A stretch of 64,000 bases of DNA, taken from the NCBI GenBank assembly GCA_022984795.1, contig JALIHJ010000054.1, positions 1 to 64,000 of the forward strand, given 5' to 3'. Within the stretch, counting starts at the first letter, position 1. Each line of letters opens with the position of its first letter. Positions 40,093-48,678 of this stretch are shown one piece after another. This DNA is from Fabrea salina. Taxonomy: Eukaryota > Ciliophora > Heterotrichea > Heterotrichida > Fabreidae. A model generated the notes under the pieces. The model did not search any database and was not told where the DNA came from. It saw only the letters and a program-made list of their open reading frames with translations. Both the position numbers and the translations under genes were made by a program.

Positions 40093-40133
40093 CTACTGCT
40101 ACTTTAGATTAAGTAATTCATATTTTTGCTATC

Positions 40134-41027
40134 ATGGAAGCTTGTTGCCAAGTCATTTCTGAGTGCAGTTGTGGAAGTTGTTTGTGTCAGCACCAAATTA
40201 ATGGGCACATCATGCAAGGCCACACTGTGAGTCCTATGGCTTTTGTCAAAGAGCTTAACTCTCTTAAAGAACTTTTGGGGAAGGTTTATGAGTCCAAATC
40301 AGAGTTGATCCAGAAATACAAGTCATTAGCTAAGCAGGTTGAGGAGGTTTTTTCAGACCAGATGACTCAACTTACTAGTTTAGAAAGTAAGATCTATAGA
40401 CTTCTTTCCGACCCTCCAGAAATAGTTCCAGAATGGACGCAACAAGTCACTGAAGAGTTAAAGGCTATTCAGAACTCCGAGGTGATTTCTTGGCTTACTG
40501 TAGATGAACTTCCCGGAACTAGCAATGTGCTTGAGTTTTCGAAGGAATTAGTTGTAGGAACTTCTGGGTTCCCAAAAGAACTATTTGAAGGAGACTCTTA
40601 CTACTTATTTGAGGTAATTCTTGAGTATGTTTCATATACTCAACAAGACTCTAAACACCTCTGTAAGGAACTCTATGACTTACCTATAGATGATAGATTT
40701 ATGAAATTTCACAACCAGAACTTCCCCTACCTTCAGAGTGCACTTAGTAGTTATGACTACCTGAAGCAGTTATTTCAAAATCCCAACTTCAAGAAGTACC
40801 TTAAGTACATCCACAGCCAAATGTCTCTGGAAAGAAACCTTGATTCTGGGCCCTTAGACCAGCTTCTACTGGAATACGCCAAAGCCCTTCGCCTGAGTGT
40901 GCACCTGCAGAGTGGAAACAACCTTAGAGTGTTTGACTTCGTTGAAGAACAAGTAGTAGTTGAAGTCACTCAAGACCAAGAAAAGTTTTACATTGGGAGT
41001 CCTAATACCCCAATAGAGAGTGACTAA
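40134..41027 (+). CDS. N-terminal part of a zinc-finger gene (B-box-like domain)
   Basis: 297 residues. Residues 4-32 carry a Cys/His cluster (CCQVISECSCGSCLCQHQ...H...GHT) resembling a B-box zinc site and almost identical in pattern to the start of the gene at 48954-50123. A coiled-coil (about 35-85) and a helical domain follow. The same frame continues past the TAA at 41025-41027 with RanBP2-type zinc fingers, so this is probably the first part of one longer gene. An 18-base GT-AG (gtgactaactactaccag, 41020-41037) would remove the stop in frame; it is longer than the 15-base norm. Confidence 0.75.
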   Translation: MEACCQVISECSCGSCLCQHQINGHIMQGHTVSPMAFVKELNSLKELLGKVYESKSELIQKYKSLAKQVEEVFSDQMTQLTSLESKIYRLLSDPPEIVPEWTQQVTEELKAIQNSEVISWLTVDELPGTSNVLEFSKELVVGTSGFPKELFEGDSYYLFEVILEYVSYTQQDSKHLCKELYDLPIDDRFMKFHNQNFPYLQSALSSYDYLKQLFQNPNFKKYLKYIHSQMSLERNLDSGPLDQLLLEYAKALRLSVHLQSGNNLRVFDFVEEQVVVEVTQDQEKFYIGSPNTPIESD

Positions 41028-41351
41028 CTACTACCAGAAGACAAGGTCATTCTATACACAGGGGAAATAGTCAACACTGACGCTAAGCACTCAACCAGAC
41101 TCTACTCTATAGAAAGGCAAACGTCTAGGGGAAGATCAACTCAACCATCCTTTCTACATGACAAAAAAAGGTCCAAAACATCAAATCCCAAGCTTCAGCT
41201 TTGGAAATGCAAGTGTGGAACCTCTAACTCTGGAGAGTGTCCTGTGTGCTCTAATTGCAAAGAACTAAAACCCGGAGAAACAGAATGGGTGTGCAAACAA
41301 TGCACTTGTAAAAACCATCAAGGATCTACCACTTGCGAAGTTTGTAGTTTA

Positions 41352-41490
41352 CAAGAAACTCCTGAAAAGCCCCCATCTTTCAGAAAGGTTTCTACCGAAA
41401 ATTATGAATACTTATCCAATAAACAAGAATCAAAAGAAGTTAGACCTGAAATAGGAAGCTCAATGCCTCCCCAGAAATCAACCCATGAAA
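41352..41490 (+). repeat. internal duplication, copy 1
   Basis: 139 bases encoding a 46-residue linker (ETPEKPPSFRKVSTENYEY...PPQKS) that recurs without gaps at 42562-42700. By eye the two copies are about 85 percent identical. Confidence 0.85.
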
Positions 41491-41597
41491 TAATAAGTGG
41501 ATTCTGGAAATGCAAGTGTGGCATTGATAACTCTAAGGAGTTTGCTGTGTGCTGTAACTGTGGGAGTCTAAAACTAGGGGAACCAGGATGGGTATGC

Positions 41598-41612
41598 AAA
41601 CAATGCACTTAT
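41598..41612. repeat. target-site duplication, left copy (LINE-like insert)
   Basis: aaacaatgcacttat, repeated exactly at 41903-41917 on the other side of the 290-base insert. Confidence 0.92.
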
Positions 41613-41902
41613 TTATTTATTTATTTATTGGAATTGTTGTAAGCCGTCTAGGCCTCTGCTTCGTGTCTTGGGTAGTTTTTTGGTTGGGTTGTCGTTTTCT
41701 TCTGCCGTTCTTTTCCTCTTGAGTTCCGGTCGTGTTTCTTCGTGTATTGGGAGCGTCGTTGTTCCGTCTTCCTGCTTTGTTTCTTCGTGTAGAATCTTTC
41801 TGGTTTTAATGATTGTGTTTACGTAGTTCTTAATTTCTGTGTCTAGTTTTTGCTTTTGCTTCGTCGTGAGCTGGTTCCTTTCGTTTTCTAATTTGTCTGA
41901 CT
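41613..41902 (-). mobile_element. 5'-truncated LINE-like retroposon
   Basis: A 290-base insert flanked by an exact 15-base target-site duplication. Read on the minus strand it starts inside an open frame of about 92 codons (SDKLENERNQLTTKQK... to ...RSRGLDGLQQFQ) that stops at a TAA in the tail, and it ends in (AATA)n directly next to the target-site copy. Truncated 5' end, 3' repeat tail and long duplication are the signature of target-primed reverse transcription by a LINE. No reverse-transcriptase motif remains, so the clade cannot be named. The duplication copies are identical, which argues for a fairly recent insertion. Confidence 0.82.
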
Positions 41903-41917
41903 AAACAATGCACTTAT
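41903..41917. repeat. target-site duplication, right copy (LINE-like insert)
   Basis: Exact copy of 41598-41612; host RanBP2-finger coding resumes within it. Confidence 0.92.
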
Positions 41918-42113
41918 AAAAACAAAGAGGAGCTTAAGTTTTGTGAAGGGTGCTACCAAGGCAAGGAAGAGATTCCTTACATAGGGAAGTTAAACATTGG
42001 AACAGAAATTAACTCAAGTTCACAGACTCGGCAAAAGACTAAGGTATTGACTCCAGTACCCAAAAGTATCAATCGACCACAAGTCTGCACTTCAGGGAGC
42101 AGATTTAGAGAGT

Positions 42114-42125
42114 ATTTTAAGAGTC
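42114..42125. repeat. target-site duplication, left copy (SINE-like insert)
   Basis: attttaagagtc, repeated exactly at 42380-42391. Confidence 0.88.
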
Positions 42126-42379
42126 GGCAATCCCAAGTATGCAAGGACTTGGTGATACCAGGGGAGAAAGCTGGTAGCGGCTGCTTTATGGTACTCGCAG
42201 TGGTACTACCCTTGCTTGCACAAGGGGAGACTTGAGGGACCTCTGAATCCCGCGCACGCTGTGCTGCCATATATGCTATGAGGGCAAGGAACACCGAGGG
42301 CTACGAAGGGTCTCTTCGGAGATAGGGCTAAGACAGCTGACCTTCCGATCGGTAACAAGATTTAATAATAATAATAATA
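42126..42379 (+). mobile_element. SINE-like or truncated LINE retroposon with (TAA)n tail
   Basis: A 254-base insert between exact 12-base duplications, with a (TAA)n tail at its right end. The body has no long open frame, is GC-richer than its surroundings, and contains hairpins such as CCCTTG-cttgca-CAAGGG (42209-42226). A T-arm-like stretch (CTCTGAATCCC, 42241-42251) hints at a tRNA-related origin, but no tRNA can be folded with confidence. The bases before the tail (CGGTAACAAGATTTAATAA) vaguely resemble the end of the LINE-like insert 220 bases upstream, as expected of a SINE borrowing a LINE's 3' end. Confidence 0.75.
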
Positions 42380-42391
42380 ATTTTAAGAGTC
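42380..42391. repeat. target-site duplication, right copy (SINE-like insert)
   Basis: Exact copy of 42114-42125; the first base may belong to the (TAA)n tail. Confidence 0.88.
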
Positions 42392-42561
42392 CATCTGATC
42401 AGCTAAAATTGAACCAATCGCTAACCAGTTTCTTGAGTAAGAATCACTTTTCAAGACCCTACGATGCTTTTAAATACTCGGGCTCAGTTTTCTCTCCAAG
42501 ACAAAACTATGGAAGAGAATTTGGGGGTGCTATTAAACCAGACCATCAAATCCGTGATCTA

Positions 42562-42700
42562 CAAGAAACTCCTAAAAAGCCCTTATTCTCCCAAAGAGAT
42601 GCTACTAAAAATTATGAATACTTATCCAATAAACAAGCATCAAAAGAAGTTAGACCTGTAAGAGGAAGCTCAATGCTTCCCCAGAAATCAAGTTACGATA
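42562..42700 (+). repeat. internal duplication, copy 2
   Basis: Gap-free second copy of 41352-41490 in the same orientation, coding ETPKKPLFSQRDATKNYEY...LPQKS. Conserved core NYEYLSNKQ.SKEVRP in both. Confidence 0.85.
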
Positions 42701-43522
42701 CCAAAGGCAACTTAACTCCAAGCTTAAGAACTCAACTCGAAAGACAAGTGATAGCTCCAGCACAGAAAGATCTCAGTAGTCAACCAAAAGAAACTAAACC
42801 AAGCTATAACCATAGTGAGTGGGTGTGTAAGCATGGCAGTCTTCAAAATGAGAAATATTTTACATACTGTACATTTTGTTCCAAAGACAAAGATGAACCA
42901 CCTAAGTATGCTTACAAAAGAACCAGTTCAGTAAATCCTATTATCCCGCCTGCACGTAACTTCAAAGAAGATAGAGGAGGAAGTGGTTGGATTGATGAAA
43001 GAGGACTTGACCAATCCCCCACTAGTCCTGTCAATAGACATAGGAATGCCTTAGAACACGGAACAAACTACGACCCTTTGAAATACCCTGAAGATTGTAC
43101 TAAGAATTACACTGAAAAGTCAGAAGAACAGAAAAGCTATAGTACCTGGGAAAATCCCTCACAAAGGCCAACTACTAAAAAAGAGCCACCTCTCTCTTCT
43201 AGAGGCACTCAAAAACGATCTAGTGAGTCTAAGCGATCAACCTGTAAAACCCTAAAAACTGAGGAGTACAATAAGAGACCCTACTCCAAAGGACAATCCA
43301 ACCCAATTCCTCCTTGTGTTAACTGTGGAGCAAAAATCACTTTAAAAATACAAAAATCCTGTCCTACTTGCAGAAAGAATCCTTACAAGGAAATTACGAA
43401 ACAACCTTTTAAAACAGTGGAAGAACCTATGGGGTGTGAAATGCTTTAGAGACTGAACCGAATTAATCAATCTTACCTTAATTTAGTTGAACTAATTAGA
43501 TTCTCAAAGGTATTTGTAACCA

Positions 43523-48555: not shown

Positions 48556-48560
48556 TCTAG

Positions 48561-48678
48561 GCTGTCAGCACGAGGGATTCCCTGGCGGTCCCCCACCCAA
48601 GTACTAACCTCGCCTTATGCCGCTTAACTTCAGAGTTCGGATGGGATCTGGTGCGTTAGGCATAGTATGGCCGACAGC
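48561..48678 (-). rRNA. 5S ribosomal RNA
   Basis: 118 bases on the minus strand. It has the conserved 5S blocks GCCATACTA, ATCCCATCCGAACTC, AGTTAAGC, and GTTAGTACTTGGGTGGG...GGGAATCCC. The ends GCTGTC and GACAGC pair as helix I. Internal Pol III control region (around AGTTAAGC and downstream) is present and a T-run follows. It is a single copy here, between two protein genes, not a tandem array. Confidence 0.96.

Follow-up and report, generated by a model that had tools for sequence, protein, structure and literature searches.

Two retroposon insertions, empty in a paralog, in one gene on a telomere-bearing contig of the ciliate Fabrea salina

The locus described here is a cysteine-rich, plus-strand reading frame of Fabrea salina (40113..43449) that is twice interrupted by inserted DNA. 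It lies in a window of 64,000 nucleotides, bases 1-64000 of contig C53 (183,908 bp), in a genome of 103 contigs and 18,328,466 bp. The window begins at C53 base 1 with the telomere repeat (CCCTAACA)n of the contig end (1..389), the final full repeat stopping at base 389; no telomere repeat was seen at the right end of C53. Permutations of a (CCCTAACA)n repeat are also described for the telomeres of Blepharisma (PMC9942806). Elsewhere in the genome, the 11,532-bp contig C4 has the telomere repeat at both ends, one of them fused directly to a copy of the LINE family found in the window (LINE-A), and C13, which carries another LINE-A copy, has a telomere at its end. These repeats point to the macronucleus of a heterotrich ciliate, and the contigs bearing them look like macronuclear minichromosomes. 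The ciliate macronuclear setting proposed in an earlier note on this DNA is thus upheld, both by the telomere repeat of the window and by the LINE copy on an 11.5-kb contig that is telomeric at both ends. A non-standard code, with TAA and TAG read as glutamine, was considered and rejected, since TAA or TAG ends 22 of the 24 window frames of at least 300 codons, TGA terminating just two. The window also holds a 5S rRNA gene on the minus strand (48560-48678; Rfam RF00001, 113.5 bits).

Both insertions are real and are defined to the base. The first is a 5'-truncated LINE-A copy on the minus strand (41613..41902, 290 bp), assigned by DNA identity to other copies of the family, and it comprises the end of a reading frame followed by an (AATA)n tail that contains the stop codon. 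Its target-site duplication, AAACAATGCACTTAT, is an exact repeat of 15 bp starting at 41598 and 41903 (left copy 41598..41612, right copy 41903..41917), for a net addition of 305 bp. The second is a 5'-truncated SINE-like retroposon on the plus strand (42126..42379, 254 bp) with a (TAA)n tail, which begins at base 191 of a 440-bp element, as judged by identity to a full-length copy on contig C68. It lies between exact 12-bp copies of ATTTTAAGAGTC starting at 42114 and 42380 (42114..42125 and 42380..42391) and adds a net 266 bp. The coordinates, strands, tails and duplications given for both inserts in the earlier note all proved base-exact. Its reading of the 254-base piece as SINE-like is supported, but the piece is not a whole element, since the full-length C68 copy measures 440 bp. 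The note had also held that the host frame is restored at both sites; when the inserts were removed by script and one target copy was kept, 41028-43449 was indeed open for 616 codons across both.

An empty-site control is provided by a paralog on contig C47, an open frame of 760 codons (C47:95635-97914) in which both insertion sites are empty and each target sequence occurs once. Identity between the two genes amounts to 975 of 1050 bases left of the LINE insert, 214 of 223 between the inserts and 953 of 1039 right of the SINE-like insert (92-96%). The alignment begins only at window base 40563, and the gene starts differ. Because the paralog shows what the unoccupied sites look like, with neither target repeated, the duplications and inserts are not products of chance. 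The same observation bears on whether the assembly misjoined repeats into the host gene. Both inserts are genomic repeats, as a misjoin would have it, but a misjoin does not create target duplications, and here each site has an exact one whose sequence the paralog holds only once, in a pattern that recurs at 26 of 30 LINE loci and 15 of 17 SINE-like loci, which makes an artefact of this kind vanishingly improbable.

Besides the two inserts, the host copy carries a third lesion, a premature TAA (41025..41027) where the aligned paralog has CAA, which divides the host frame into 40113-41027 and, with the inserts removed, 41028-43449. Because of this third lesion beside the inserts, the host cannot be regarded as a healthy gene. 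Differences between host and paralog number 53, 42 and 49 at codon positions 1, 2 and 3, and the pairwise, unpolarised dN/dS over 749 codons is 0.73, so that the two genes show little constraint as a pair. When the genome was searched with the paralog protein, 13 matches were obtained, all partial except C47 itself and the window gene; two of the partial matches, also on C47, show 94% identity over residues 2-200 and 81% over residues 8-182, and neither reaches the insert sites. The zinc-finger label previously given to this gene rests on cysteine pairs, which are plain in the translation, and is not borne out by Pfam, in which neither the paralog nor the first frame of the window gene region reaches a cut-off. 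For the paralog, the best of these sub-threshold matches are to DUF7577 (E 0.027) and to Zn_ribbon_15 (E 0.03). The premature TAA, the low constraint on host and paralog and the truncation of the SINE-like piece had been overlooked.

The restored frame raises the question of whether the inserts are germline-limited DNA, similar to internal eliminated sequences (IESs), that was caught by the assembly and is lacking from most macronuclear molecules. The frame would indeed be restored wherever an insert was lost along with one copy of its target, and partial excision as IESs is described for some retrotransposon loci of Blepharisma (PMC9942856). However, a TAA would still stand in the host frame after such removal, and sister copies occur on telomere-bearing contigs, including the one fused to a telomere on the 11.5-kb contig. 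Nothing observed in these sequences appears to call for a germline-type copy, and we consider this explanation very unlikely, even if the inserts may be excised in part, be spliced from the RNA or be absent from some macronuclear copies.

Both inserts belong to small families with further copies in the genome, which have different flanks and duplications of their own, as expected if the earlier calls of a LINE and a SINE-like element were correct. LINE-A occupies at least 29 loci among the scored candidates, and the 30 LINE loci considered here are these 29 plus one distant relative on C40. Seven copies that match almost the whole span of the window piece are 96.6-99.0% identical to it, and the window copy is, by this identity of up to 99.0%, young. 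Longer copies on C4, C20 and C68, which were placed in LINE-A by DNA identity, contain pieces of the reverse transcriptase domain PF00078, above cut-off on C4 and C20 and below the curated cut-off on C68. The window piece is coding as far as its tail, with a TAA stop within the AATA repeat (seen on the C4 copy). Copies of the family fall into two classes at the 3' end, one of which has an internal repeat of about 125 bp that the other lacks. All this is accompanied by 5' truncation graded across copies and by the (AATA)n 3' tail. An exact flanking duplication of 10-21 bp is present at 26 of the 30 LINE loci, lengths that may be inflated by overlap with the tail. The four exceptions are a copy cut short on C4, one at the contig edge of C102, a degraded one on C44 and the distant relative on C40. 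Full-length LINE-A was absent from the loci examined. One of the copies (C19:212300-213900, L056) sits deep in a 240-codon frame, where its net insert of 249 bp is a multiple of three.

The possibility that the LINE-A piece is a defined unit, always starting at one 5' position, was also considered, as four copies (window, C13, C70 and C43) start within 6 bases of each other. It was rejected: the remaining 22 ends scatter over a broader range and P is 0.037 in a smoothed simulation, and the description as a truncated LINE was therefore kept. The LINE-A copies examined are strongly truncated, and an APE-type endonuclease domain was seen in the related LINE-B on C51, where PF03372/PF14529 and reverse transcriptase domains share a reading frame that two TGA codons interrupt. 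Apart from these in-frame TGA, the LINE-B frame of 1358 codons (C51:170500-177500, L015; minus strand, 6136-2060) is free of TAA and TAG up to its end; in Blepharisma, TGA is described as encoding tryptophan (PMC9942806). Among solved structures, the LINE-B reverse transcriptase is closest to the LINE-1 ORF2 protein (E 1.7e-31), followed by R2. A third family, LINE-C, is represented by a 314-codon frame that Pfam does not recognise; it yields 36 matches, 18 of which, including the eight best, reach the last residue. A reverse transcriptase match on C18 was rejected as a LINE, being the telomerase reverse transcriptase gene (C18:199771-200430, L019; PF12009, PF11474 and PF00078).

The SINE-like family comprises 18 genome matches, the window's own included. 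Its complete member, on C68, measures 440 bp and has no long frame, and a copy on C48 has the same 5' start, is 88% identical and is shorter through internal deletions; the 440-bp element is defined by the upstream sequence common to these two. The window piece matches the full-length C68 copy at 99.6% over 250 bases, and it too is young. Flanking duplications are found at 15 of 17 loci, a count that omits the 18th locus (C40, beside another copy) and scores a composite on C81 by its outer duplication; the exceptions are C29:92071, with a degenerate repeat only, and C30, with none. Many copies are 5'-truncated, and three (C29, C81 and C16) have a different 3' end with a (TTAA)n tail. Apart from these three, the family has what is expected of a SINE, being a short non-coding element with target duplications and a constant 3' tail. 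A search with its 3'-end pattern gave 14 matches, 13 at SINE-like loci and one in a short C81 fragment, and when its 3' end is set beside those of LINE-A, LINE-B and LINE-C, the likeness is limited to a short A/T-rich stretch. The C81 composite belongs to a nest of retroposons (C81 381-1750, L048), where a LINE-C copy lies in a SINE-like tail between copies of GATCGGTAACAAGATTT (404 and 1350) and is followed by a copy of a second SINE-like subfamily, with TTTACCCATAACT occurring three times (381, 1378 and 1738).

We use the term SINE-like instead of SINE because a Pol III head is not recognisable. Rfam at relaxed thresholds returned only sub-threshold chance matches for the element (two, with one more outside it), ARAGORN found 0 tRNA in it, and its best A/B-box pair scores 12 against a mean of 12.46 in 200 shuffles, which is not above chance. 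It also contains internal T6 and T5 runs. By these tests, the element has no recognisable Pol III-derived head (tRNA, 5S or 7SL) with an internal promoter. Its folding energy is -154.2 kcal/mol (z -1.6, 100 shuffles). One truncated 5' end recurs, at base 290 in 4 of 12 copies (P 0.00015 under uniform truncation), the 12 excluding the two full-length copies, the two lacking an exact duplication and the C81 composite. RNA hairpins as the cause of recurring 5' ends were rejected, as the effect is not significant over eight distinct ends (0.125).

Retroposons this similar could conceivably have been copied within the soma itself. The macronucleus is inherited through vegetative divisions, and insertions that arose there might be transmitted by asexual division, for which the near identity of the copies would leave room. 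However, somatic retroposition is not required by anything observed here, and we judge it improbable.

When target sites were rebuilt, 6 of 26 LINE-A sites and 8 of 15 SINE-like sites fell in a stop-free frame of at least 150 codons, compared with 88% of random window positions (n=2000). These 14 sites include the window's two, and 11 of the other 12 were inspected (C35 was left out): seven are at a frame edge and four are deep inside (SINE-like on C76, C40 and C48; LINE-A on C19). Because four of the 11 lie deep inside frames, finding an insert in the assembly does not require that its host be broken. The in-frame shortage is not proof of selection, because ten LINE-A loci have shorter flanks than the background positions and an endonuclease preference for A/T-rich DNA may account for part of it. 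We think it improbable that the case reveals a compact ciliate genome with a currently active LINE and a new kind of SINE-like parasite, a 440-nt RNA with no recognisable Pol III head, which jumps in, or is inherited through, the somatic macronucleus, most genic insertions being purged by selection among macronuclear copies. The insertion sites can be counted, so that one can examine whether genes stay free of inserts through selection or through the choice of target.

Based upon these features, the locus very probably records two independent and recent target-primed reverse transcription events in one member of a duplicated gene, on a macronuclear contig. Presumably, LINE machinery would nick A/T-rich target DNA and prime reverse transcription at the simple-repeat tail of the LINE's RNA, an early stop leaving a stub, here the 290-bp LINE-A piece. 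LINE machinery, not necessarily that of LINE-A, would likewise yield the 254-bp piece when acting in trans on the RNA of the non-autonomous 440-bp element. A host copy that was dispensable from the outset, or became so, may explain why both inserts were tolerated. We infer this mechanism, the mobilisation of the SINE-like element by a LINE and the dispensability of the host, as we would any order of the nonsense codon and the inserts.

Retention of such elements in a ciliate soma has precedents. According to accounts of the Blepharisma macronuclear genome, its non-LTR retrotransposons are of the APE type and seem to have spread recently, with partial excision as IESs at some loci and uniform coverage at plenty (PMC9942806, PMC9942856). 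In Loxodes magnus, LINEs with endonuclease and reverse transcriptase are reported in macronuclear DNA, with about 2,700 reverse transcriptase domain copies kept in both nuclear genomes (PMC11441545). The statement in the earlier note that ciliates usually remove mobile DNA from the macronucleus is therefore too general for this case, and the surprise it expressed has already been answered in print, because Blepharisma and Loxodes keep non-LTR retrotransposons there. By published description, Blepharisma stoltei is alike in being a heterotrich and in macronuclear location, APE endonuclease and reverse transcriptase, high copy identity and truncated copies (PMC9942806, PMC9942856), but the passages on it mention no SINE-like partner, and the word "sine" has 0 occurrences in the main text of PMC9942856. 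Loxodes magnus is alike in retaining LINEs in macronuclear DNA, at about 2,700 reverse transcriptase domain copies (PMC11441545) versus the at least 29 LINE-A loci here. Alongside both, the present locus speaks against somatic clearance of retroelements as a rule without exception in ciliates. The REP family of Tetrahymena, also a ciliate non-LTR family, is reportedly, by the title of its description, restricted to the germline micronucleus, whereas the copies described here are on telomere-bearing contigs of macronuclear type.

What this locus adds is the precise double insertion with its empty-site control and the SINE-like companion. A very compact ciliate genome thereby offers, in DNA of macronuclear type, a case of LINE and SINE-like insertion resolved to the base. 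SINEs are short and non-coding, have target duplications and a simple-repeat tail, and depend on LINE enzymes. The element described here shares the first four of these properties and would presumably share the fifth. Unlike them, it has no recognisable tRNA, 5S or 7SL head and no Pol III boxes above shuffles, and many of its copies are truncated at the 5' end. In a case that is mostly ordinary, what stands out most is a SINE-like family in which no Pol III head can be recognised.
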